Shown here: positions 7,071 to 50,947 of the stretch, piece by piece
Layout of the letters: every line of letters begins with the position of its first letter
Position numbering within the stretch: position 1 is the first letter of the stretch
DNA from: Candidatus Hydrogenedentota bacterium
GTDB lineage: Bacteria > Hydrogenedentota > Hydrogenedentia > Hydrogenedentales > JAEUWI01
Reading direction: 5' to 3'
Assembly (NCBI GenBank): GCA_016182605.1
Contig: JACPGE010000044.1
Coordinates: forward strand, 1-64,000
DNA length: 64,000 bases
Notes under the pieces: model-generated
Database searches by the model: none
Told to the model about the DNA's origin: nothing
What the model saw: the letters and a program-made list of their open reading frames with translations, nothing else
Position numbers and translations under genes: made by a program

Positions 7071-8042
7071 CTAAATCTTGTCGCCCGGCTGCCACTCGAA
7101 AATGCGTGCCGGGTCGTCGAAATAGCGCTTCACGTGCTTGCCAAAAGGGAACGCTTCGCCCGCGTCGAAGGCCCGGTGGTCCATGGAGCCCGTGAGCGTG
7201 ATCGTGTAGCGCGGCACCACCTGGCCGTCGACGACCCAGGGCGCCAGCTTCAAATCCCCGATCCCGAACATCATCACTTCCGGGGGCACAATCACCGTGA
7301 GCGTCTGGTTGCCGGCCACCATCATACCGATGTTGGCCACGGTACAGGTGGAGCCCAGGATATCCTCCACGCGCAGGCGCTGCTCCACGGGAATCCGCTC
7401 CATCGCGGGATCGGGCAAGGGCCGCTGCCACAGCGATCCGCGCAGCCAAATCCAGAGTGCCCCTATCGCCCCCAGATCCAGTTCCTTCAGGCCTATCTTC
7501 ACATACTCCGCCGCGGCTTCAAAATAGAGCTGTTCCGGATCGGTGCGGCGCGAGCGGCGCACCAGGTCCCGCATCTCCGAAGCCACCTGCTCCAGCGTCT
7601 TCAGATGCGGATTGCGCAGCACCGGGCGCACCACGCCGAAGCGCGTGTGCACCGTGAAACTCAGGTTGATGTCCTCGCAGCGGTAGAGTTTGCCGCCGTT
7701 GCGCCAGGGCGTGTAGTCGATAAACGCGTTCATGCACGGCGTGTGGTAGAGCGAATGCGCGATGGCCTTGAGGAAGAAGGCGGAAAAGTTCTTGTGGATC
7801 GCCCGTTTGAAGAGGTCCTTCTCGGAAAGCCGTTCCGCGCCGCTGACGATCTCCTGGTCCACTTCGCGCCCGTATTCCACCAGGGGCGTCACGTCGTATT
7901 GAATCACCATCGCCGCATGGGGGGTGTTCCGGGCCGACTCGGAAAGGAAGTGGGAAACGAGCTGGCGGAGAAAGTGAAACTGCGTTACCTCCTTGATTTT
8001 CACGTGTTTACGAAGATAGGCGACACGAAAATCCTGGAACAT
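7071..8042 (-). CDS. Stand-alone catalytic domain of a 2-oxoacid dehydrogenase E2 acyltransferase
   Basis: A 323-residue protein that matches only the chloramphenicol-acetyltransferase-like catalytic domain of dihydrolipoamide acyltransferases. Features are an N-terminal segment TQFHFLRQLVSHFL, INLSFTVHTRFGVVRPVLRN in the middle, GSTCTVANIG (the usual TFTISNLG region), and the active-site motif DHRAFDAGEAF with His289 and Asp293. There is no lipoyl domain and no E1-binding domain. A motif insertion also separates the catalytic Asp from the usual Gly. It therefore cannot serve as a normal E2 without a lipoyl partner in trans. It may act on another acyl carrier. No E1 or E3 gene is nearby. It may be monocistronic. 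Confidence 0.8.
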   Translation of the reverse strand: MFQDFRVAYLRKHVKIKEVTQFHFLRQLVSHFLSESARNTPHAAMVIQYDVTPLVEYGREVDQEIVSGAERLSEKDLFKRAIHKNFSAFFLKAIAHSLYHTPCMNAFIDYTPWRNGGKLYRCEDINLSFTVHTRFGVVRPVLRNPHLKTLEQVASEMRDLVRRSRRTDPEQLYFEAAAEYVKIGLKELDLGAIGALWIWLRGSLWQRPLPDPAMERIPVEQRLRVEDILGSTCTVANIGMMVAGNQTLTVIVPPEVMMFGIGDLKLAPWVVDGQVVPRYTITLTGSMDHRAFDAGEAFPFGKHVKRYFDDPARIFEWQPGDKI

Positions 8043-8136
8043 GAGGAGCCTCCCCGGCAGTTACAGATCAACTGGGACAATACCGCCGGCGCCTTGCTTC
8101 GTTACAGCTTGGACCAAAACCGGGGCGCCCGGGAAA

Positions 8137-10261: not shown

Positions 10262-11377
10262 TCAGTCAAGATAGGGGTTCGTGTCGATCCGTATGGCCTC
10301 GTGCACGGCGCGCAAACGCTCCGCCGCGCTCTCCCGGCAGGCGCCGGTGCATACCGCATAGCCATGCCGGTCCCGGCTTTCCAGGTCCACGCAGTGGCGC
10401 ACCACGTCCCCTTTCTTCGCGGGGATCACGATCGACACGAGCCCGGGCAGCGCGCCGGCCTTCTCCAGGCCCTTGATGCCCTGCACCACCCCGGAGCGGC
10501 ACAGGAACCAGCCAATCGCCACACCCAGATTGCGCCGGGCGTTCAGGCGCGGCGGCAATCCACAGAGCACGCGCATCCATTCGGCGCTCAGGTCGATGCC
10601 CAGCCCCTCGCGAAAGAGCACGCGCAACGGTGCGGGCAGCTCATGATGTATCCACAATCCGGAGACCAGGAAGTCCTTGCCCTCCGCAACGATCTCCACT
10701 TCAAGCAGGGCGTGGCACGGAGGCAGCGCCCGCGCCGCGGCATGCGCCAGGTCCATGCATGTCCCATAGGCCCCGCCGCGCAGCGGCGCCGGAAAGGTGT
10801 AGCCCAGCGGCATGCGGAAGCCCTTCGGCTGCATCGTAACGCCCACCGCGTCGATGGCGAGAAACTCGCGGCCACGTTTGAAACCAAAAACGGAAATGGT
10901 GGCGCCTGCGCTCGCAGTCTGCACCAGGGCTTCGTTTGCCCGGCGAAACACCATGCGCAGGGCGAGCCCCAACTCTTCCTCCGCGTCAACCACGGCGCTC
11001 GCATTGAAGCCGGGCGCCAAATTGCCGTGGACCCACAGGGGGTAGGGCCCCGCTTCGAATAGTGCGGCACTGGAATCGCCCGCCAGCGAAAACGGCAGGT
11101 GCGGCACACTCGATGCCGCCAGCACCATCGGCGTTACTCCATTCAGCGCGCCCGCCCCGCCAAGCCCAAGGCGCTGCGCCGCCCGGTTCACAATGGCCCA
11201 ATGGCGCCCATCCGCGTTGTATATACCCTGAACCCGCCGCGTCTTGCCCGCGCGAACGAGGCCGTCCTCCAGCGCCGCCGCATCCTCGATCGCGCCGCTG
11301 TAATAAACGGCATTCAGCCCCGCGGGCCCTGCGCTTGCCTCTATCCTCGCGGCGCCGGTTCCGCCATTCACAATCAT
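10262..11377 (-). CDS. ATP-grasp-fold protein with eroded catalytic residues
   Basis: About 371 residues from ATG 11377. No strong ribosome binding site is seen, so the start is uncertain. The protein has the outline of an ATP-grasp ligase: an N-terminal alpha/beta part, [12 protein letters not shown] (62-73), a middle with PYPLWVHGN where V-V-K-P is usual, [18 protein letters not shown] and [18 protein letters not shown]-terminal module ([20 protein letters not shown], then [17 protein letters not shown]) resembles the LAL_C2-type cap of these ligases. The ATP-binding Lys is replaced by His, and the metal-binding Glu-x-Asn-x-Arg stretch reads SGLWIHHEL. It keeps an intact reading frame, so it looks like a pseudoenzyme rather than a pseudogene. 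It is divergent from the peptide ABC operon. A role in amino-acid or peptide ligation is not supported. Confidence 0.6.
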
Positions 11378-11572: not shown

Positions 11573-13273
11573 ATGAAGTTGCCTTCACCCCTCGCTTTGC
11601 TTGTCTTGCTGCTTGCCTTCACCGGGCTCGCCTGCTCCAACACCGGCACCGAACCTGCCGCCAAAACAGGCACAAACCCGCAGACAGACGCTGCGGCGGC
11701 GCCGCAGGCCGCCGGAGAACCGGTGGACGGCGACTGGATCGTCACGCATTCCCCCACGGAGCCCCCGACCCTCAACCCCTTCCTGGAATCGGCCGGGGCA
11801 GACACCGTTCGCGTTGTCGATGGCAATGGCGGCTTCATCTATGAGAACCTCGTCACCTACGACAGCGATACGTTGGAAGTGATTCCCTGGATTGCCGAGT
11901 CCTGGACCATCTCCGAAGACAAACTGGCCTACACGTTTAAGTTGAAACAGAACGTGACCTTTTCAGACGGCGTGCCCCTCACCGCGAACGATGTGAAATT
12001 TACCTTTGATACCGTCCTGGACCCCAAGAACCTCACCGCGGACCGGCGCAGCTACTTGAGCGGCCTTAAAGAGGTCAACGTGCTGGACGATTATACGATC
12101 GAGTTCAAGTGCGCCAAGCCCTACTTCCTGAACCTGATCACCCTCGGCACCCAGTGGGTCTTGCCCAAACACATCTTCGGTACCGGGGACTTCAACACGC
12201 ACCCCAACAACCGCGCACCCATCGGCAGCGGTCCCTACCTCTTCGAGTCGTGGCAGACCGGCAGCGCCATCACGCTCGCGCGCAATCCCAACTATTGGGG
12301 AGAGAAGAAGCCCCACGTCGACAAGATCATGTTCAAGATCATCACCGACGACAACGCCGCCTTCCTGGAATTGCAGAACGGCGGCATCGACGAGATGCGC
12401 ATCACCAACGCCGAGCAGTGGACGAACCGCACCAACACGCCGAAATTCACCGATCAGTTTGACAAGTACTCCCTCTGGTCCCCGGTCAACGGCTACCTGG
12501 GCACCTTCAACTGGATTGCCTGGAACATGCGCCGCCCACTGTTTGAAGACAAGCACGTGCGCCGGGCGATGACCATGCTCCTCGATCGGCAGCGCATTCT
12601 CGACAAGGTCTATTACGGCCTCGGCCGCGTGGTGACCGGTTATAGTTTCCCGGACAACGACGACTACGACAAGACGATTGAGCCCTGGCCCTACGATCCG
12701 GATCGGGCCGTGATGCTGCTGGAAGAGGCCGGCTGGAAAGACACGGACAACGACGGAATCCGCGACAAGAACGGTGTGCCCTTCAAGTTTGAGTGGATCT
12801 TTGCCAGCGGCGTGAACGAGTACGAGATCATGGCCACGGTCTACAAAGAACAGCTCGACAAGGTGGGCATCAACATGACCATCCGCCCGCTGGAATGGGC
12901 CAGCTTCATCGAGAGCGTGACCAAGCGGGAGTTCGACGCCTGCATGATGGCGTGGGTCAGCCCGATTGAATCCGACCCCTATCAAATCTGGCACTCCAGC
13001 CAGACCGAGAACGGGAGCAACTATCCCGGCTTCAAGAACGCGGAAGTGGATCGCCTCATCGAAGAAGCGCGCGTCGAATTTGACGAAGACAAACGCAATG
13101 CCCTCTACCGGGAATTCCACAAGATCCTCCACGAGGAACAGCCCTACACCTTCCTCTTCAACCGCAAGCGCAATCTGGCGGTCTCGAAGCGTTTCGAAGG
13201 TGTGAAGGAGCAGCCGCTCGGCTTCGATTTCAGGGATTGGTGGGTGCCCGTGGCCGCGCAGAAATACCGCTGA
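11573..13273 (+). CDS. Peptide ABC importer, solute-binding lipoprotein (DppA/OppA family 5)
   Basis: 566 residues from the ATG at 11573, preceded by AGGAG. The signal peptide ends in a lipobox (LAFTGLACSN), so it is a lipoprotein in the periplasm. Family 5 markers follow: TEPPTLNPFLESAGAD, IPWIAESWTISEDKLAYTFK, NVTFSDGVPLTANDVKFTFD, IGSGPYLFESW, the conserved NPNYWGEKKPHVDKI, AMTMLLDRQRIL and FDACMMAWVS. It binds peptides or similar solutes and delivers them to the permease encoded next. It is the first gene of a complete five-gene operon. A short calcium-loop-like DTDNDGIRDKNG occurs near residue 400, which is common in this family. The gene order fits Dpp, Opp or App systems; solute specificity cannot be told. 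Confidence 0.93.
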   Translation: MKLPSPLALLVLLLAFTGLACSNTGTEPAAKTGTNPQTDAAAAPQAAGEPVDGDWIVTHSPTEPPTLNPFLESAGADTVRVVDGNGGFIYENLVTYDSDTLEVIPWIAESWTISEDKLAYTFKLKQNVTFSDGVPLTANDVKFTFDTVLDPKNLTADRRSYLSGLKEVNVLDDYTIEFKCAKPYFLNLITLGTQWVLPKHIFGTGDFNTHPNNRAPIGSGPYLFESWQTGSAITLARNPNYWGEKKPHVDKIMFKIITDDNAAFLELQNGGIDEMRITNAEQWTNRTNTPKFTDQFDKYSLWSPVNGYLGTFNWIAWNMRRPLFEDKHVRRAMTMLLDRQRILDKVYYGLGRVVTGYSFPDNDDYDKTIEPWPYDPDRAVMLLEEAGWKDTDNDGIRDKNGVPFKFEWIFASGVNEYEIMATVYKEQLDKVGINMTIRPLEWASFIESVTKREFDACMMAWVSPIESDPYQIWHSSQTENGSNYPGFKNAEVDRLIEEARVEFDEDKRNALYREFHKILHEEQPYTFLFNRKRNLAVSKRFEGVKEQPLGFDFRDWWVPVAAQKYR

Positions 13274-39167: not shown

Positions 39168-41897
39168 GTGTTGAAACTGGTAATAGTGGAATCGCCGGCC
39201 AAGGCCAAGACGATTGGCAAGTTCCTTGGCAAGGGCTATGAGGTGGTGGCAAGTTATGGCCACGTACGGGATTTGCCCAGCAGTGCGGAGGAGATCCCGG
39301 AGTCGATCAAGGGGAAGCCGTGGGCCCGGATGGCGGTGGACGTGGAGAACGACTTTACGCCGGTCTATGTGGTTCAGGCGGACAGCAAGAAACACATTGC
39401 CGAGTTGAAGAAGCTGGTGAAGGCGTCTGAAGAAGTGGTGCTGGCGACCGATGAGGACCGGGAAGGGGAGGCGATAAGCTGGCATCTGCTGGAGATCTTG
39501 CAGCCCAAAGTCCCGGTGAAACGGATCGCGTTCCACGAAATCACGAAGACGGCCATCGAAGAGGCGATAGCGAGCCCGCGCGAGGTGAATTATTCGCTGG
39601 TGCGCGCACAGGAAAGCCGGCGCATCCTGGACCGGCTCTACGGCTATTCGCTGTCGCCGGTGTTGTGGAAGAAGGTGCGCACGAAACTCAGTGCGGGGCG
39701 GGTGCAGAGCGTGGCGGTGCGCCTGGTGGTGGAGCGCGAAGAGGAGCGGCGTGCGTTTCACACGGCCACGTTCTGGGACATTGAAGCTCAGTTGGAGGCC
39801 GATGGCATCGGCTTCAAGGCGGTGCTCTCCCAATGGGACGGCAAGCGCATTGCAGGCAGCAAAGATTTTGACGAGAAGACGGGGAAGTTGATCGCGGACA
39901 AGGTGCATTGGCTGAAAGAGGCGGAGGCGAAATCGCTGGCGTCGGGGCTGGAAACCGCAGCGCCGTGGCAGGTGATCGGGGTGGAGCAGAAGGCGTCGAA
40001 GCGGAAGCCGCCCGCGCCGTTTATCACGTCGTCCTTGCAGCAGGCGGCGAGTTCGCTGCTGGGGATGAGTCCGAAACAGACGATGCAGGTGGCGCAGCGG
40101 CTGTACGAAGGGGTGGATCTGGGCGGAGGCGAACGCGAAGGTCTGATCACGTACATGCGTACCGACTCGGTGATTCTGAGTGAGCGCGCGCTCGCGGAAG
40201 CGGCGCAGGCAATCAAGTCCATGTACGGCGATCGCTACCACGAGCGGCGTCAGTACAGCACGAAATCGAAGATGGCGCAGGAGGCGCACGAAGCGATCCG
40301 GCCGACCCACCTGAGCCGTCCGCCGCGGGAAGTGGCGGCCTATGTGAGCAAGGACGAATTGCGGCTCTATGCCTTGATCTGGAACCGCACGATGGCCTCG
40401 CAGATGGCCGATGCGGAGCTGATGCAGACGAGCCTGGAGATTGGCGCGAAAGTGCAGGGCAAAGAGGCCGTATTGCGCGCGACGGGCACCGTGGTGACCT
40501 TCGATGGTTTCCTGAAGGTGTCGGATGCGGAGCAGTCGGACGTGCAGTTGCCGCATCTGAATCAGGGGCAGAAAGTGGGCCGCAACGAGGCCGTGAAACT
40601 GCATGGACTCGAAGCGCTGGGCCACGAGACGAAGCCGCCGGCGCGCTTCAACGAAGCGAGCCTGGTGCGCCGTTTGGAAGAAGAGGGGATCGGGCGTCCG
40701 TCCACCTATGCGCCGACGATCTCGATCATTCAGCAGCGCGGCTACGTGGACAAGCGCGGGAAGGCGCTGGTGCCGACCTATCTGGGCATCGCGGTGACGC
40801 TGCTGTTGCGCAAACATTTCAGCGAGTTTGTGGACGTCAAGTTCACGGCGCGGATGGAAAACGCGCTGGACGACATTGCGGAAGAGCACCAGGACTGGAA
40901 GCAGTTCCTGTCGAGCTTCTATTTTGGCAACGGCGATTTCGGGCATGGATTGCAGCCGCAAATCGATTCGCAGATGGAGCAGATCGACTTCCCGAGCATC
41001 CCCGTGGGCGACGACGAGGCGGGCCTGTCGATTGTGGTGCGCCTGGGCCGCACGCAGGCGTTTTTGCAGCGGGGCGAAGGCGGCACGGGCCACACGGCGA
41101 CGGTGCCGGAAGACATTGCGTACGACGAGTTGACGGTGGAGAAGGCGGTGTCGCTGCTGGAGGCGCGCGCCAAGGGGAACGAGCCTCTCGGTCAGGATCC
41201 GGAGACGGGACTGAACGTGTATGCGATTCTGGGTCCGTTCGGGCCGTATGTGCAATTGGGCGAGGTGACGGAGGGCGAGAAGAAGCCGAAGCGCGTGAGT
41301 CTCGGCCGCGGATTTCCGCTGGAAGATGTGACGCTGGATATTGCAATGCAATATTTGGGACTGCCGCGAAAGGTGGGCGATCATCCCGAGACCGGCAAGT
41401 CGATCCGCACGGCCATCGGACGCTTCGGCCCCTACGTGGTGTGCGATGGCGAGTTCCGCAGTCTGCCCACGACGGAGACCGTGTTCTCGATGACTCTGGA
41501 CGAAGCCGTGGCGCTCTTGGCCCAGCCCAAACGGGCGGGACGCCAGAAGGTGCTGTTGCACACGGTCGGCGAACATCCCGAGAGCAAGGCAGCGCTGGAG
41601 ATCTATGAGGGCCGCTATGGCCCCTACATCACGCTCGATGGCGTGAACGCATCGCTTCCCAAAGGTGTGGACCCGGCCACCGTAACGGTGGCGCAGGCGC
41701 TGGAACTGCTTGCCGCCGCAGCGGAACGGAAGCCGGCCGCGAAGAAGCGCGCGGTGAAGAAGAAGGCGGCGGCCAAGGCCCCTGCGAAAAAGGCTCCGGC
41801 AAAAAAGGCCGTGGCGAAAAAAGCTGCCGCGAAAAAACCGGCGGCCAAGAAAGCCGCGGTTAAGCTGGCAGCAGACAAGAAGGCCCCTGCGAAGTAA
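39168..41897 (+). CDS. topA: DNA topoisomerase I with a lysine/alanine-rich tail
   Basis: 909 residues from GTG 39168 (or TTG 39171), preceded by AAAGGAG. This type IA enzyme relaxes negative supercoils. The Toprim domain has VIVESPAKAKTIGKFLG and DEDREGEAISWHLLE. The core has SAGRVQSVAVRLVVERE, the catalytic Tyr329 in GLITYMRTDS, HEAIRPT, and RLEEEGIGRPSTYAPTI. The C-terminus lacks cysteine zinc ribbons. Instead it has three Topo_C repeats (LGPFGPYVQLGE, IGRFGPYVVCDG, EGRYGPYITLDG). It then ends in about 50 residues of repeated KKA, AAKK and APAKK, a histone-H1-like tail. This architecture occurs in Actinobacteria, planctomycetes and relatives. The tail probably aids processive DNA binding. 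Confidence 0.96.
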   Translation: MLKLVIVESPAKAKTIGKFLGKGYEVVASYGHVRDLPSSAEEIPESIKGKPWARMAVDVENDFTPVYVVQADSKKHIAELKKLVKASEEVVLATDEDREGEAISWHLLEILQPKVPVKRIAFHEITKTAIEEAIASPREVNYSLVRAQESRRILDRLYGYSLSPVLWKKVRTKLSAGRVQSVAVRLVVEREEERRAFHTATFWDIEAQLEADGIGFKAVLSQWDGKRIAGSKDFDEKTGKLIADKVHWLKEAEAKSLASGLETAAPWQVIGVEQKASKRKPPAPFITSSLQQAASSLLGMSPKQTMQVAQRLYEGVDLGGGEREGLITYMRTDSVILSERALAEAAQAIKSMYGDRYHERRQYSTKSKMAQEAHEAIRPTHLSRPPREVAAYVSKDELRLYALIWNRTMASQMADAELMQTSLEIGAKVQGKEAVLRATGTVVTFDGFLKVSDAEQSDVQLPHLNQGQKVGRNEAVKLHGLEALGHETKPPARFNEASLVRRLEEEGIGRPSTYAPTISIIQQRGYVDKRGKALVPTYLGIAVTLLLRKHFSEFVDVKFTARMENALDDIAEEHQDWKQFLSSFYFGNGDFGHGLQPQIDSQMEQIDFPSIPVGDDEAGLSIVVRLGRTQAFLQRGEGGTGHTATVPEDIAYDELTVEKAVSLLEARAKGNEPLGQDPETGLNVYAILGPFGPYVQLGEVTEGEKKPKRVSLGRGFPLEDVTLDIAMQYLGLPRKVGDHPETGKSIRTAIGRFGPYVVCDGEFRSLPTTETVFSMTLDEAVALLAQPKRAGRQKVLLHTVGEHPESKAALEIYEGRYGPYITLDGVNASLPKGVDPATVTVAQALELLAAAAERKPAAKKRAVKKKAAAKAPAKKAPAKKAVAKKAAAKKPAAKKAAVKLAADKKAPAK

Positions 41898-42020
41898 CAG
41901 ACCGGTGCGGGCAGCGCGAATCTGGCGCCGTCGCCAGAGGTGGCTTCGACTCGATTGCCCCGCCGTTCGGGAGCTATACTGGTGGCTCTTGCACGGGGGC
42001 GCAAACCGTGGAGAAGTACC

Positions 42021-42647
42021 ATGAAACGGTTTCTGAAGATCGCCGGTGGCATCGTGGCGATCCTGCTGCTGATTCTGGGCGCCGTCGCCTGGCAGTATTT
42101 TATCAATCACAACTGGCGCACGGTGGAAGAGGGCGCGTTCTACGGCTCCCGCCAGATGTCCGGTCCGGCTCTGGCAGCCGCCATACGCGATCACGGCATC
42201 AAGACCGTCGTGAATTTCCGCGGGGACAATGCGGGTCAGCCCTGGTATGACGACGAGGTAAAGGCCTGCGAGGCGGCGGGCGTGACGCACGTCAATTTTG
42301 CATGGTCGAAGAGTTCCCTGCCCCCTCCGGAATCGCTGGCCGCGTACATCGCCCTGATCGAAACCGGCGAAAAACCCTTTCTCACCCATTGCCAGGGTGG
42401 CACGCACCGCACTGGGGTGGCTGCTGCCTGCTATGAATTGATCCGCGGGAAAGGCGTTGACGCGGCGCGCGCCCAGTTTGGACCCGCCTTCAACGACGCC
42501 CCTATTGGCAAGCTGGTGGATCTCTACGAGGGTTCCACGATGCCCTTCGCGCAATGGGTGCGCGAGATCTACCCGCTGGTCTACGTGGAATTGAAGGCCA
42601 GCGAGGAGCAGGCCGCTCCGGAAGCCACAGTGGCAGCGGGCGCCTGA
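42021..42647 (+). CDS. Membrane-anchored dual-specificity/tyrosine phosphatase-like protein
   Basis: 208 residues from the ATG at 42021, which follows GGAGAAG. An N-terminal helix (IAGGIVAILLLILGAVAWQY) anchors it with the enzyme probably outside the cytoplasm. The phosphatase signature HCQGGTHRTG (Cys124, Arg130) fits HCx5R, and the earlier VEEGAFYGSRQMSG and HGIKTVVNFRGDN are typical of the DSP/PTP family near tyrosine phosphatase SiwX14-type proteins. The substrate could be phosphoprotein or inositol phosphate. It lies between topA and the btuF-like gene and is probably transcribed on its own. Confidence 0.83.
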   Translation: MKRFLKIAGGIVAILLLILGAVAWQYFINHNWRTVEEGAFYGSRQMSGPALAAAIRDHGIKTVVNFRGDNAGQPWYDDEVKACEAAGVTHVNFAWSKSSLPPPESLAAYIALIETGEKPFLTHCQGGTHRTGVAAACYELIRGKGVDAARAQFGPAFNDAPIGKLVDLYEGSTMPFAQWVREIYPLVYVELKASEEQAAPEATVAAGA

Positions 42648-42704
42648 GCGCGGGCCCGAGCCACGCGAGGAATGTGGATTTCCCGTGCATTTTGTGGTCC
42701 TTTG

Positions 42705-42757
42705 CGTTACACTGGTGGCGCAGAATTCTTGGGAATCACGATATTCACAGTGTAACG
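42705..42757 (+). promoter_or_regulatory. Inverted repeat in the btuF-like leader
   Basis: CGTTACACTG (42705-42714) and CAGTGTAACG (42748-42757) are perfect 10-bp inverted repeats 33 bases apart. The second arm ends directly at the GGGAG ribosome binding site of the gene starting at 42770. It could fold in the mRNA and mask translation, or be two half-sites for a regulator. No B12-box of a cobalamin riboswitch was recognised. Confidence 0.5.
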
Positions 42758-42769
42758 GGAGAAATTCGC

Positions 42770-43693
42770 ATGGCAGGGCGCCTTAGCCGCAAGGTGAGGT
42801 GGGGGCAAGTTTCCGGGCGTTGGATGGCGGTGACCATTCTGGCAGGGATTGCCCTGTTGGGTGCGGGGTGTGGCGGGTCCACAGCACCGCAGGGGATCAT
42901 GACCTTGGCGCCGCACCTTACCGAGACCGTGTTTGCCCTGGGGCAGGGCAAACGGGTGGTGGCTGTGGGGAAGTTCGACGATTACCCGCTTGCGGTAAGT
43001 CTACTGCCCGATGTGGGCGGCTACCTCGATCCGGATCTGGAAGCGATCGGTCTGTTGAACCCGGCGTTGTTGATTGTGCCGGGCGATCACCGCAAGGTGT
43101 CCGAATATGCGGCCTTGAACACCATTCCTGTGTTGAACGTGAACATGGACAGCCTGGCCACCATTGATGCGGGCATCGCCACGATTGGCGAGGCGCTGGG
43201 TGCAGTGAAGCAGGCCGATGCGTTGCGGCAACAGGTGAAGTCGGAAGTGGAGGCGATGCGTGCGGCCGTGGGCGATCGGCCGCCGGTGCGGGTACTGATC
43301 GTCACTTCTCGCGAGCGCGGCCAATTGGACAACCTCTTCACCGTGGGCAAAGAGTCGTTCGTGTCGGAGATGGTGGAACTTGCGGGGGGGCAGAATATCT
43401 TCGGCGACCAGGCCACGGGGTATTTCGAGGCCTCGAAGGAGACGATGGTGATGGCGGCGCCGGAGGCGATCATCGAGTTCCACGCAGGCAAGACGATGAC
43501 GAGCAATCAGAAACAGGCCTTCTACGACGACTGGATGGCCTTTACCGATGTTCCCGCAGTGAAAAACGGGCGTATCTACCTGATTCAGGAATCGCACGCG
43601 TTGCGTCCCGGGCCTAGAGTGGTCGACATTGCCCGCATTGTGGCTCGATCCTTGCACGCCGATGTCGAGATTCCGGCAGTGGACGAATCTTAA
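42770..43693 (+). CDS. BtuF/FepB-type solute-binding lipoprotein for a corrinoid or iron chelate
   Basis: 307 residues from the ATG at 42770, which follows GGGAG. The signal peptide ends in a lipobox (IALLGAGCGG). The PeripBP_2 fold is shown by IMTLAPHLTETVFALGQGKR, AVGKFDDYP, LPDVGGYLDPDLEAIGLLNP, SFVSEMVELAGGQNIFGDQA and AAPEAIIEFH. It would bind cobalamin, heme or a siderophore in the periplasm and pass it to the permease encoded at 48772-49806. In known operons the binding protein, ATPase and permease are adjacent. Here a 4.2-kb block separates btuF from its ATPase. The last 73 bases of the gene recur at the ATPase start. Gene symbol withheld because the ligand is uncertain. Confidence 0.85.
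   Translation: MAGRLSRKVRWGQVSGRWMAVTILAGIALLGAGCGGSTAPQGIMTLAPHLTETVFALGQGKRVVAVGKFDDYPLAVSLLPDVGGYLDPDLEAIGLLNPALLIVPGDHRKVSEYAALNTIPVLNVNMDSLATIDAGIATIGEALGAVKQADALRQQVKSEVEAMRAAVGDRPPVRVLIVTSRERGQLDNLFTVGKESFVSEMVELAGGQNIFGDQATGYFEASKETMVMAAPEAIIEFHAGKTMTSNQKQAFYDDWMAFTDVPAVKNGRIYLIQESHALRPGPRVVDIARIVARSLHADVEIPAVDES
43619..43691 (+). repeat. Direct repeat, left copy: btuF 3' end containing an orphan btuD start
   Basis: This 73-base block matches 47938-48010 at 59 positions without gaps. In frame 1 it is the end of the btuF-like protein (VVDIARIVARSLHADVEIP). In a second frame it holds an ATG (43662) with MSRFRQWTNL, which parallels the true ATPase start MSTIQTKTNL. The ATPase frame is lost immediately after the repeat. 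Confidence 0.85.
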
Positions 43694-44126
43694 TGCAATC
43701 CTTCGGGATGCGGGTATGTCCGGGCCGGAATACGCCCCGGTCCATCATTTATGGCGTGCCGTTGTACGGAGCGGGTTAGGTTTTGATTCCGGATTTTGGG
43801 CAGGATTCGCCGGATTTGCCAATCTATAAAACCCATGGTACACTCGACCTGTGCATTCCCCCAGCCGGATCGCCTCGTTTGTTCGGTCTGCGGGAAAACT
43901 GGAAAGTCTGACTCTAGACTTGCGGTCATGCGTGTCACTCTCCATGCGTCTATTCGATAGAAGCCGGGTTCGGGCAGAATCTTTGCTGTGCTTCGATGCA
44001 AAGGACTTGGGTTGCGCAGAACGCTGGTCATGTGCGTTGCCTCGCCGGGCCTAACAATCTCGTGAAACGATTCCTGAAATCCGATTGAAACGCCTGTCTC
44101 CGGCCGGCTGTTTTGAGGAGAATGCC
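43694..44126. other. Intergenic stretch between the btuF-like gene and the RedB-like gene
   Basis: No gene is supported here. It follows the left direct repeat and contains a good promoter at 43816-43844. This leaves a long leader of about 275 bases before the RedB-like gene, with no recognised riboswitch. Confidence 0.5.
43816..43844 (+). promoter_or_regulatory. Promoter of the RedB/kinase/HD-GYP operon
   Basis: TTGCCA (43816-43821), a 17-base spacer and TACACT (43839-43844) match the housekeeping consensus. It lies inside the separating block, so the block brings its own promoter. Confidence 0.55.
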
Positions 44127-44771
44127 TTGGGAAACAAACTGCTCTATTGCCTCACGGGATCCTGGCTGGCTCTGGTCTGCGCGGGTATGGTGGTGGTGGA
44201 GCGCCACTCGGTACGAGCCGGGCAGTCTGCGTCCTCCGGCAACGGCTGGCCCGTGGACACGCACCTGAGCCGATCCGCGGACAAACCTGCGCTGTTGATC
44301 TTTGCCCATCCGCACTGTCCCTGTACCGAAGCCATGATGAGCGAGATGTTCCGCATTGAAGCACGGCACCCCGGCGCGTTTGACCCGACCGTGGTTTTTA
44401 CGGTGCCGGAGGGCGGCGATACGTCGGAATGGACGGAGACGTCCCTTATACAACGTGCCCGTCAACTGCAATCGGTGAAGGTCGTTTTCGATCCAGGCGG
44501 GCGCGAGGCGGCGCTGTTTTCGGCGAAGACCTCGGGCCAGATCATGCTCTATGATGTTTCGGGCCATCCGCTGTTTACGGGCGGCATTACCGCGGCCCGG
44601 GGCCACGAAGGGAACAATGATGGCCGGAAATTGCTGGAAGCCGCACTGACGCATCCCGATGGATCGTTGCGGATCTTTCCCGTGTTTGGATGCGGGCTCG
44701 TCGTTCCTGATGCGGCGCGCCCCCAGAAAGAAGCTGGGCCACGGCCCGGGGAACACTCAATATGGAAATGA
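44127..44771 (+). CDS. RedB-like thioredoxin-fold protein, membrane-anchored
   Basis: 214 residues from TTG 44127, which has GAGGAG six bases upstream. A TTG at 44085 in the same frame has no such site. An N-terminal helix (LTGSWLALVCAGMVVV) anchors it. The core LLIFAHPHCPCTEAMMSEMF has a Cys64-Pro-Cys66 pair where thioredoxins have CxxC. KTSGQIMLYDVSGHPLFTGG, ITAARGHEGNN and the late VFGCGLVV follow. I recall proteins of this form annotated as 'RedB' in planctomycetes and relatives, next to the same type of kinase. It overlaps the kinase gene by ten bases. A redox-sensing or electron-transfer role to the kinase is inference. Confidence 0.7.
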   Translation: MGNKLLYCLTGSWLALVCAGMVVVERHSVRAGQSASSGNGWPVDTHLSRSADKPALLIFAHPHCPCTEAMMSEMFRIEARHPGAFDPTVVFTVPEGGDTSEWTETSLIQRARQLQSVKVVFDPGGREAALFSAKTSGQIMLYDVSGHPLFTGGITAARGHEGNNDGRKLLEAALTHPDGSLRIFPVFGCGLVVPDAARPQKEAGPRPGEHSIWK

Positions 44772-46681
44772 CGGACAAGGTGGCGGCACGCGCCTCTCAG
44801 CTCTATGCGGCGGATCAAGGCGGTTTGTACCGCCGGACCGACCGGCTGTTTGCGGGGCTCATGGTCTTTCAGTGGCTGGGCGCCGTGATCATGGCGGCGC
44901 TCGTTTCGCCCCGGACCTGGACCGGGGAGATGAGCCAGGTGCATATTCACCTGTGGACCGCGGCCAGTCTGGGCGGCCTCCTGACCATTTTCCCCGTCTT
45001 TCTGGTCACGGTAAACCCCGGCACGGCACTCACGCGCCACGTCATTGCCATATCGCAGACCCTGTTTGGGGCCATGCTGATTCACCTGAGTGGCGGGCGC
45101 ATCGAAACCCATTTCCATGTTTTCGGTTCGCTGGCCTTCCTCGCCTTCTACCGGGACTGGCGTGTGCTGGTTACAGCCACCGTCATCGTGGCGGGCGACC
45201 ATTTCCTGCGCGGCATGTTCTGGCCCCAGTCCGTTTTTGGCGTGCTCTCATCCAGCCAATGGCGCTGGCTGGAACATGCGGCCTGGGTATTATTTGAAGA
45301 TGTAATCCTGGTGGCGTCGTGCCAGAGCGGCGTACGCGACATGAAACACGTGGCGCAACGTCATGCGGAGCTGGAAGCGACCAACGAGTTGATCGATGCC
45401 AAGGTGCGCCAACGCACCTTTGAACTGGCACAAGCCCATGAGAATCTGGAAGACATGGTGGAAGAGCGCACCGAGGAATTGCAGCGCACGCTGGTGAGTC
45501 TGCAGGAAGTGAACGTCGAATTGCGCGAAGCCAACCGGCACAAGAGCCGCTTCCTTTCCACCATGAGCCACGAATTGCGGACCCCCCTGAATGCCATTAT
45601 CGGATTTGCCGATCTGCTTGCAGGCGAGGGCTACGGGCCGCTCAATGAGAAGCAGGGCAAGTTTGTCAGCCGGATCGACGACAGCAGCACCCACCTGCTC
45701 GCGTTGATCAACGACATTCTGGATGTGGCCCGGATAGACATGGGCGCCATGGAACTCACGCTGGAGAGCATCGAGTCGGAAGAAGTTTTGTCCGACGTGC
45801 ACCAGATGATGCTGCCGCAGTTTGAAAAGCGGCAGATACAACTGGTGCTGGCCGAAGACCGCGGCCATTGCTGCCTCCGGGGGGATCGGCGCCGCTTGCG
45901 CCAGATTGTGTTGAACCTGTTGTCCAATGCCCTCAAATATGCGCCCGCGGGATCCGAAGTGACTCTGGATTGCCACACGGAGGACGAGCGGCTGGTCCGC
46001 TTCACGGTCGCGGATCGCGGCGTGGGCATCGAGGCGGAACAACTGGAACACATTTTCGAGGAGTTCAAGCAGGCCAACCGGGAGCGCGACGAAGCCCTGG
46101 GGGGCATTGGATTGGGGCTTGCGCTCACGCGGCGGCTGGTGGAACTTCAAGGCGGGACCATCCACGTGGAGAGTGTGCCCGGCGAAGGCAGCACCTTCTG
46201 GTTCACCGTGCCCGGCGCCCCATCCAATATCCTGGTTCCAGCGGCCCTCCTGCCGAAGGAAGCGGAGATCCCCCGCACGGGCCGGGAGATCACCGTGCTG
46301 GTGGCCGAAGACAATGAAGTAAACATGATGATGATTTCGGACATGCTCACGCTCCACGGCTACACCCTCCTCACCGCCAGAAACGGCCAGGAATGTGTGG
46401 ACCTTGCGCGCGCCCACCATCCGAATTTGATCATCACGGATGTGCGCATGCCCGTGAAAGACGGCCTCGAAGCCGTGCGTGAACTGCGCCTGGAAGCCCT
46501 TTTTAGGGACACGCCCATCATCGCACTGACCGCGAATGCGAGCCACGTGAGCCGGGAAGCCTGCCTGGAGGCCGGGTGCAGCCATCACCTGACGAAACCC
46601 ATCAAGTCGAAAGAACTGTTTCCGGCGATCGAATATCTGCTCAAGACGGACAAACCCCAGGGAGTACCGGCACAGGCATGA
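44762..46681 (+). CDS. Membrane-bound hybrid histidine kinase
   Basis: 639 residues; start 44762 or the ATG two codons later. Residues 28-188 form about six helices with conserved histidines (IHLSGGRIETHFHVFGSLAF at 107-126, GDHFLRG at 145). I associate this type of input domain with kinases and chemotaxis receptors, and metal or heme binding is possible. A coiled linker (200-260) leads to the HisKA box FLSTMSHELRTPLNAIIGFA with His270. The ATPase domain has NLLSNALKYAP, VADRGVGI and GGIGLGLALTRRL. A C-terminal receiver has Asp560 (IITDVRMP) and Lys612. The gene overlaps the RedB-like gene and ends in ATGA with the regulator, so all three are coupled. Confidence 0.92.
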   Translation: MEMTDKVAARASQLYAADQGGLYRRTDRLFAGLMVFQWLGAVIMAALVSPRTWTGEMSQVHIHLWTAASLGGLLTIFPVFLVTVNPGTALTRHVIAISQTLFGAMLIHLSGGRIETHFHVFGSLAFLAFYRDWRVLVTATVIVAGDHFLRGMFWPQSVFGVLSSSQWRWLEHAAWVLFEDVILVASCQSGVRDMKHVAQRHAELEATNELIDAKVRQRTFELAQAHENLEDMVEERTEELQRTLVSLQEVNVELREANRHKSRFLSTMSHELRTPLNAIIGFADLLAGEGYGPLNEKQGKFVSRIDDSSTHLLALINDILDVARIDMGAMELTLESIESEEVLSDVHQMMLPQFEKRQIQLVLAEDRGHCCLRGDRRRLRQIVLNLLSNALKYAPAGSEVTLDCHTEDERLVRFTVADRGVGIEAEQLEHIFEEFKQANRERDEALGGIGLGLALTRRLVELQGGTIHVESVPGEGSTFWFTVPGAPSNILVPAALLPKEAEIPRTGREITVLVAEDNEVNMMMISDMLTLHGYTLLTARNGQECVDLARAHHPNLIITDVRMPVKDGLEAVRELRLEALFRDTPIIALTANASHVSREACLEAGCSHHLTKPIKSKELFPAIEYLLKTDKPQGVPAQA

Positions 46682-47859
46682 ATCCATCCTTTAACACTTC
46701 GGAAGCCCTGGCGGACACGAGGACGGCAGTTCCGGACAACGGAAACGAACTGGTCCTTATCGTCGATGATGTCAGTGCCAATCGGGAACGGCTAGCCGAC
46801 GAAATCGAACTGCTCGGCTACCAGTATGCCGAAGCCGGGAATGGCGTTCAGGCACTCGAACAACTCGAAACGCTCACGCCGGATCTCATCCTCCTGGATC
46901 TCATGATGCCGGTCCTGGACGGCCACGGCGTGCTCGATGCCATGCATGCGCACCCGGAGTGGCGGCGGATTCCCGTCGTTGTGGTCTCCGGCATGGACGA
47001 TTTGGACAGCGTGGTCAAGTGCCTGGAAAAAGGGGCCGCCGATTATCTGGTCAAGCCCATCAAAAGCCGGCTGCTCCGCGCGCGAATCGAGAACACGCTT
47101 GCGGGAAACCGCCTCCGGAAACGCGACGAATTGCTCCGCGCAATGACCCACCGCTACAACGAAGAGCTCGAAGTCCGCGTGGCCGATCAGGTGAAGCAGA
47201 TTGCCGATGCCCATGTGTCCACCATCTTCGCCCTGTCTGCGCTTTCCGAGTCGCGCGACCCGGAAACGGGCGCGCACCTGGAGCGGATGCGGGAATACTG
47301 CCGCCTGCTGTCGGTGGCCCTGCAATCGGAACCGGCCTATGGGAACGTCATCGACGCCGCCTTCGTCGAGAACATCTACGCCGCGTCGCCGTTGCACGAC
47401 ATCGGCAAGGTGGGCATCCCCGATCACGTGCTCTTGAAGCCGGGGAAACTCTCGGAAGGCGAATTCATCATCATGCAACAGCACTGCACCATCGGCGCGG
47501 AAACCTTGCGGCGCGTCAGCGAACGCTACAAAGACAATGCCTTCATCAATATGGGCATCGAAATAGCCGAGAGCCACCATGAAAAATGGAATGGCGCCGG
47601 TTATCCCCATGGGACGCTGGGCGAAGAGATACCGCTTGCCAGCCGCATTCTGGCGCTCTGCGATGTCTACGACGCGCTCACGTCGAAGCGCTGCTACAAG
47701 GAGGCCTTTTCCCATGAGAAAAGCAGGGACATCATCCTGAGCGAGCGCGGAAAGCATTTCGATCCGATCATCACGGACGTATTCGAGCGCATCCAGGACG
47801 AATTCGACGCCATCCGCATGCGCCTGCAAGAGGAAGACCGGCCGCCCGCGGCCCTGTGA
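46678..47859 (+). CDS. Response regulator with HD-GYP c-di-GMP phosphodiesterase domain
   Basis: 393 residues. The receiver has LIVDDVSANRERLADEIELL, the phospho-acceptor Asp74 in LLDLMMP, and Lys127 in VKPI. A helical linker (150-180) leads to the HD-GYP domain: GAHLERMREYCRLL, PLHDIGKVGIPDHVLLKPG with His240-Asp241, and HHEKWNGAGYPHG (300-312), a full GYP motif. It should hydrolyse c-di-GMP when phosphorylated by the kinase encoded just before it. C appears more frequent than G on the coding strand here (46861-46920 has about 22 C and 13 G), unlike the G-rich genes on either side of the block. Confidence 0.93.
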   Translation: MNPSFNTSEALADTRTAVPDNGNELVLIVDDVSANRERLADEIELLGYQYAEAGNGVQALEQLETLTPDLILLDLMMPVLDGHGVLDAMHAHPEWRRIPVVVVSGMDDLDSVVKCLEKGAADYLVKPIKSRLLRARIENTLAGNRLRKRDELLRAMTHRYNEELEVRVADQVKQIADAHVSTIFALSALSESRDPETGAHLERMREYCRLLSVALQSEPAYGNVIDAAFVENIYAASPLHDIGKVGIPDHVLLKPGKLSEGEFIIMQQHCTIGAETLRRVSERYKDNAFINMGIEIAESHHEKWNGAGYPHGTLGEEIPLASRILALCDVYDALTSKRCYKEAFSHEKSRDIILSERGKHFDPIITDVFERIQDEFDAIRMRLQEEDRPPAAL

Positions 47860-47937
47860 GTCCCGCCGTGCCGCACGCATTCCGGAACGCCTGATTGGGA
47901 AACCGTCCCGGCGTTGCTTCACTGCAACGGCTTCCGG

Positions 47938-48010
47938 GTGGTCGACATTGCCCGCAGTGTTGTGCGATCCTTGCACCCCGATGTCGACAATCCAGACAAA
48001 AACGAATCTT
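47938..48010 (+). pseudogene. Direct repeat, right copy: btuF 3'-end remnant overlapping the ATPase start
   Basis: Read in the btuF frame it encodes VVDIARSVVRSLHPDVDNPD and ends at TGA shortly after NES. This corresponds to the end of the binding protein at 43619-43693. Upstream of 47938 the similarity vanishes, so only the tail of btuF is left. The ATPase ATG at 47981 lies inside it in another frame. Confidence 0.8.
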
Positions 48011-48771
48011 GAGGGGCGTCTCCTGGGCTATGCATATACGCCTGGGCTGTCTGTGCTGGAGTCGGTGAATGTGGCCGTGGGCGAGGGGGAACTGGCCGGC
48101 ATCGTGGGCCCCAATGGGTGCGGCAAGAGCACCCTGCTGCGGCTGCTGGCGGGGATGCTGCCCCTGCAAGCGGGAGAGGTGGCGCTGAACGGCCGCCCGC
48201 TGCGCGACTACGCCCACCGGGACCGGGCGCGGCATCTGGCGTTTCTGCCCCAATCGGTGAATCCCGCCTTCGATCTGCCCGTGGAGGAGGTCGTGCGGTT
48301 GGGGCGTTTTCCGCATGGCGGCGGCGGGAGCACGGCGGTGCAGCAGGCGATGGCGCGGACCGACGTGGCGGGTCTGCGCGGGCGCGCCTTTTCCAGTCTG
48401 AGCGGGGGCGAGCGCCAGCGGGTGCTGCTGGCGGGGGTATTGGCGCAGGAGCCGCACCTGATGCTGCTCGACGAGCCGACCTCTGCGCTAGACCTGCATC
48501 ATGAGGCGGAGGTATTTCATCTCTTGCGTGGCATGGCGCGCGGCGGCGCGGGCATAGCAGTGGTGACGCACAACCTGAATGCGGCGGCGCAATACTGCGA
48601 TCGGATTGTGCTGCTGGGCGCGTCGCACCGGTGCGTGGCGGAAGGCGCGGCGAAAGCCGTATTTACCGAGGCGCACTTGAGCGCGGCCTATGGGGCGGCG
48701 ATCCGCGTTGCGCGTCATCCGCTCACGGGCGGCGTGTTTGTGGCCGCGCAGGCGCCCTCCGGAGACGCACC

Positions 48772-48775
<4 letters not shown>
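47981..48775 (+). CDS. BtuD/FepC-type ABC ATPase
   Basis: 264 residues from the ATG at 47981, inside the btuF remnant. Walker A is GPNGCGKSTLL, the Q-loop is FLPQSVNPAF, the signature is LSGGERQRVLLAG, Walker B is LMLLDEPTSALD and the switch histidine is in VVTHNLNAA. The end YGAAIRVARHPLTGGVFVAA is typical of cobalamin and iron-chelate ATPases. It powers the permease encoded next, with which it shares a GTGA overlap. Its binding protein is 4.3 kb upstream. Confidence 0.9.

Positions 48776-50947
<2,172 letters not shown>

Follow-up and report, generated by a model that had tools for sequence, protein, structure and literature searches.

Insertion with long target duplication was described in Helicobacter pylori (Nobusato et al. 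2000, Gene 259:99). According to later reports the duplicated target is long and of variable length, and the inserted unit often carries restriction-modification genes (PMC1643837, PMC3031569, PMC3154945, PMC4978471). For the insertion sequences IS5 and IS1 a target duplication of 4-10 bp is stated in one of these reports (PMC3031569). Two further systems resemble the genes considered here. The ABC importer operons of the vitamin B12/iron-siderophore type encode a binding protein, an ATPase and a FecCD permease. NosR-like HD-GYP response regulators comprise a receiver and an HD domain and are paired with a hybrid kinase.

The locus lies in a window of 64,000 nucleotides (positions 1 to 64,000 of contig JACPGE010000044.1, assembly GCA_016182605.1) from a Candidatus Hydrogenedentota bacterium. 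It contains the same three importer genes, here split by 4.3 kb, and a receiver and HD domain protein encoded beside a hybrid kinase. A complete signalling operon was probably inserted at the btuF/btuD junction of a coupled btuF-btuD-btuC-type operon, which was thereby split with duplication of the target. The features are as follows.

42770..43693, + strand: intact gene of a btuF-like periplasmic substrate-binding protein (PF01497, E 6e-24)
43619..43691, + strand: left copy of the duplicated btuF/btuD junction, 59/73 identical to 47938-48010
43722..43743, + strand: terminator-like hairpin after btuF, weak, as such sites are no more frequent than in shuffles
43816..43844, + strand: predicted promoter of the inserted operon from a consensus scan, TTGCCA-17-TACACT, with TGG before the -10
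44085..44771, + strand: RedB-like protein, predicted membrane-anchored thioredoxin fold with a CPCT motif
44762..46681, + strand: hybrid histidine kinase with a conserved multi-helix N-terminal domain, HisKA, HATPase and receiver
46678..47859, + strand: response regulator with an HD-GYP-type HD domain (PF00072, PF13487)
47890..47937, + strand: candidate extension of the second btuF-tail remnant, rich in indels (gapped BLAST, borderline)
47938..48010, + strand: right copy of the duplicated junction, a btuF tail without its body and the real btuD start
47981..48775, + strand: gene of a btuD-like ABC ATPase, starting inside the btuF-tail remnant (PF00005, E 9e-31)
48775..49806, + strand: gene of a btuC-like FecCD permease (PF01032, E 3e-80)

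The initial annotation had reported a direct repeat of 73 bp, and its coordinates proved exact: the two copies agree ungapped at 59 of 73 positions (81 %) with a spacing of 4319 bp. The alignment score of 79 is far beyond chance, the maximum in 2000 dinucleotide shuffles being 32. Used as a query against the whole 6.76-Mb genome, the end of btuF matches the two repeat sites only, the second with an E value of 1.6e-12. The repeat opens with a stretch of 19 identical bp, which is also the longest exact run between the copies, and the similarity drops sharply at the upstream edge. Gapped BLAST extends the match upstream to 43579-43691 and 47890-48010 (72 % over 121 columns). Tested alone, the additional upstream part is borderline, since 4-5 of 400 shuffles reach it with lenient scoring and strict scoring gives no signal; the best match of 47860-47937 within 1.6 kb of btuF and its upstream DNA is nevertheless the collinear place. 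The duplicated junction can thus safely be given as at least 73 bp and possibly comprises about 120 bp. Other repeats of different kinds occur as well. Near-identical copies of about 211 bp are found at 7888-8099, 11010-11222 and 11595-11808 of one short contig (L104, G000:C30), possibly a repeat element or a repeated domain, and adjacent direct repeats of 0.5-0.8 kb with 61-63 % identity (15376-16208/16422-17230 and 8541-9036/9078-9576) are probably tandem paralogous genes.

Both copies have the content that had been ascribed to them. The left one is the end of the intact btuF-like gene and includes an orphan ATPase start (ATG TCG..), which heads ten codons of the btuD reading frame leading nowhere. 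In the btuF frame the right one gives VVDIARSVVRSLHPDVDNPDKNES followed by a stop, with the real ATPase ATG at 47981 inside, and it is a tail without a body: a BtuF profile built from the relatives gives it 13.2 bits, compared with a best value of 4.6 in 2000 shuffles and 33.2 for the left tail. Outside the ATPase frame 37 of 42 positions are identical in the two copies, within it 22 of 31, as fits two copies each freed from one of two overlapping frames. Both btuF tails have the same frame relation to btuD and the same terminal ES codons, and they are nearer to each other than to the tail of any relative. All transporter genes of the locus are open, and none was broken by the insert, so that each of the two operons has kept an intact look.

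An original neighbourhood of the three genes, with the btuD start inside btuF, had also been proposed and is borne out by the relatives. btuF, btuD and btuC are directly adjacent in 28 of them from seven families, 20 of the 28 with a 4-nt ATGA overlap of stop and start, and the spacing ranges from overlaps to 182 nt. The block stands between the genes in none of these genomes, so a block ancestral to this junction was rejected; two full btuF genes, which would have pointed to another history, were likewise not seen. The closest relatives compared are of family level, with transporter proteins about 50-60 % identical, and the empty site is therefore deduced from distant relatives. The position of the operon itself is not conserved: in the region 39168-50944, btuF-block-btuDC is located between topA/phosphatase and tgt-yajC-secDF genes, and these neighbours are absent from the contiguous-operon regions of 6/6 relatives.

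The signalling operon exists as a separate unit elsewhere. Of the 68 genomes of the order that were searched, only three besides the one under study have a RedB-like gene, and all three belong to the same family. In G005 the genes for the RedB-like protein, kinase and HD-GYP regulator stand in the same order on contig C501 between unrelated genes (49/62/71 % identity), and the uninterrupted btuFDC operon is located on another contig, C397. This bears out the expectation that a relative would carry the block elsewhere. The G005 block is not bracketed by a btuFD repeat, which agrees with an origin of that repeat as a target-site duplication. A flank gene of G005 was used to seek a donor site in the genome under study and gave a weak homologue of 34 % only and no empty site. 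Furthermore, the orthologous operon is preceded by TTGCCG-17-TACACT with an identical CATGG before the -10 (L079:808-836), and a count over both strands of 787 kb gives no more than 5 cases of TTGnnn paired with TACACT at 16-18 nt. The same-order copy in G005, the common promoter and the contiguous btuFDC operons of the relatives together argue for an independently existing operon whose position in this genome is derived, in agreement with the proposed insertion of a promoter and three signalling genes with duplication of the junction.

The three genes of the block are of the kinds named in the initial annotation. The RedB-like protein matched no Pfam or NCBIfam model; its AlphaFold model (pLDDT 76) has thioredoxin-like best hits in Foldseek (best E 3.5e-7), by which the protein is a predicted membrane-anchored thioredoxin fold. 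No Pfam model covers the N-terminal membrane domain of the kinase, and the model of this sensor domain (pLDDT 66) leaves its fold too uncertain for a structure search. The domain is 57-61 % identical in distant relatives and is strongly conserved in a Verrucomicrobia metagenome-assembled genome and in another bacterium, each time directly downstream of a RedB-like gene. A search of the genome contigs with the kinase yielded only two RedB-kinase pairs, both distant, and no closer relatives. A RedB-like gene directly upstream of a kinase with this very conserved multi-helix domain is seen at 44085-45391 and at L079, L082, L083, L089 and L090. Such pairs occur across different phyla with differing kinase C-termini, and their RedB-like proteins share an invariant FAHPxCPCT and a C-terminal GC. 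Unlike the NosR-like regulators, the regulator of the block (152 bits against an NCBIfam NosR cut-off of 400) has a thioredoxin-fold partner gene upstream. That the block serves redox- or metal-linked sensing passed on to the HD-GYP regulator is no more than a reasonable guess.

The names given to the genes fared less well, as neither 'B12' (btu) nor 'RedB' has family support here in the Pfam and NCBIfam or riboswitch searches. The transporter proteins stay below the NCBIfam cut-offs of the BtuF, BtuD and BtuC models (74/234, 149/281 and 178/334 bits, respectively), and no cobalamin riboswitch was found with Rfam in the window or the relatives, so that a riboswitch-backed B12 function was rejected. 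As judged from sequence, a B12 specificity of this btuFDC-like importer is unproven.

The locus resembles insertion with long target duplication in that the unit is present in one genome and absent at the corresponding site of relatives, in that the flanking direct repeats are a duplicated target far longer than those of insertion sequences, and in that the insert lacks a transposase. The known cases mainly concern restriction-modification genes in close Helicobacter strains, whereas here a sensing operon sits inside a coupled transporter operon, and identity between the copies has fallen to 81 %. A classical transposon does not fit the at least 73 duplicated bp, nor the block itself, in which no transposase was found and which is entirely accounted for by its three genes. 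Ku-dependent non-homologous end joining is unlikely as well, because no Ku gene was found in 20 genomes, the own one (97.9 % complete) and 19 relatives, by a search that was positive for the Bacillus subtilis control. The ancestral state would have been a translationally coupled btuF-btuD-btuC-type operon, at whose junction the complete, separately promoted operon was inserted. The insertion probably took place in one step, illegitimate or repair-associated and free of a transposase, with a long duplication of the target. The end of btuF would have been kept by the left copy and the start of btuD by the right one, without breakage of a transporter gene. Each copy would later have drifted once only one reading frame needed keeping. 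Composition gives no sign of a foreign origin. The block is indeed C-richer than its neighbours, as had been noticed, and the figure was numerically right. Its reading as a foreign mark did not hold, since in a comparison with 213 long genes sampled from the genome and the window the codon usage of the kinase lies nearer to the host mean than that of 96 % of the genes comparable to it in length, the regulator is typical too, and the skew outliers (high G skew) are topA, btuF, btuD and btuC instead of the block.

A different order of events begins with a tandem duplication of btuF with the btuD start, or of the whole operon, followed by entry of the signalling operon between the copies and later deletion of the second btuF body and of any first btuD-btuC. 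The possible remnant at 47890-47937, which with its indels looks like a decaying gene, and the divergence of the copies by about a fifth would suit this history, which had been offered as an alternative from the beginning. However, it needs a duplication, an insertion and one or more deletions and thus more steps, the sharp upstream edge next to 19 identical bp speaks against it, and after the left copy no resemblance to a btuD body, to btuDC or to the DNA upstream of btuF was detectable. It is weakened accordingly and appears unlikely. An arrangement that is ancestral and was lost in the relatives, or a repeat due to chance or to an assembly error, is hardly credible in view of the 28 relatives, from seven families, that have the operon uninterrupted and of a repeat score reached by 0 of 2000 shuffles. 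The k-mers used in assembly are typically longer than 19 bp, and with a longest exact run of this length a repeat-induced misassembly is unlikely.

The transporter genes might also have different histories, btuDC and the btuF tail having come from another lineage and been joined to the resident btuF and the signalling operon. In the trees BtuF groups with four orthologues of the same family (support 95/92), whereas BtuD and BtuC show no clear grouping with theirs and have branch lengths of 0.85-1.0 (medians of the relatives 0.18-0.28), compared with 0.40 for BtuF (median 0.36). In addition, the G+C contents of btuD (68.7 %) and btuC (66.2 %) exceed that of btuF (61.3 %) and also that of the block. 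On the other hand, the btuF tails on either side of the block have unusual features in common and are closest to each other, AU tests do not reject family descent of BtuD and BtuC (p 0.30 and 0.21), and no closer BtuC was found in the rest of the phylum. Separate origins of this kind are very doubtful as an account of the whole locus; the long branches of BtuD and BtuC may go back to a separate origin or to constraints that changed when the operon was split. Quite improbable, too, is the farther-reaching idea of the RedB-kinase-HDGYP operon as a small unit, self-mobilising or selectively captured, that inserts with long target duplication and has brought the ATPase and the permease of the transporter, though not the binding protein, under redox/c-di-GMP-linked control, with fast evolution of these two proteins thereafter.

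Insertion of the signalling operon with duplication of the junction would also have altered the transcription of the transporter genes. btuF retains its own upstream region and would keep its own promoter. btuD starts 121 bp after the regulator gene, and no terminator-like site was found in this interval, for which reason btuD-btuC are likely to depend on the promoter of the block (43816-43844). Their transcription from there, predicted from sequence, is a plausible consequence of the insertion.

As a trace of genome rearrangement the locus is clear yet rather ordinary, being of a kind known in other bacteria; its cargo is unusual and its outcome neat. It can be read as a fossil of an operon that was split without breakage of a gene, the stop of the upstream gene and the start of the downstream one each being retained in the duplicated junction. 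With this locus a pattern known chiefly for the restriction-modification genes of Helicobacter also takes in a signalling operon and a sparsely sampled phylum, and the locus offers a testable case of transporter subunits that would have been put under separate promoters.
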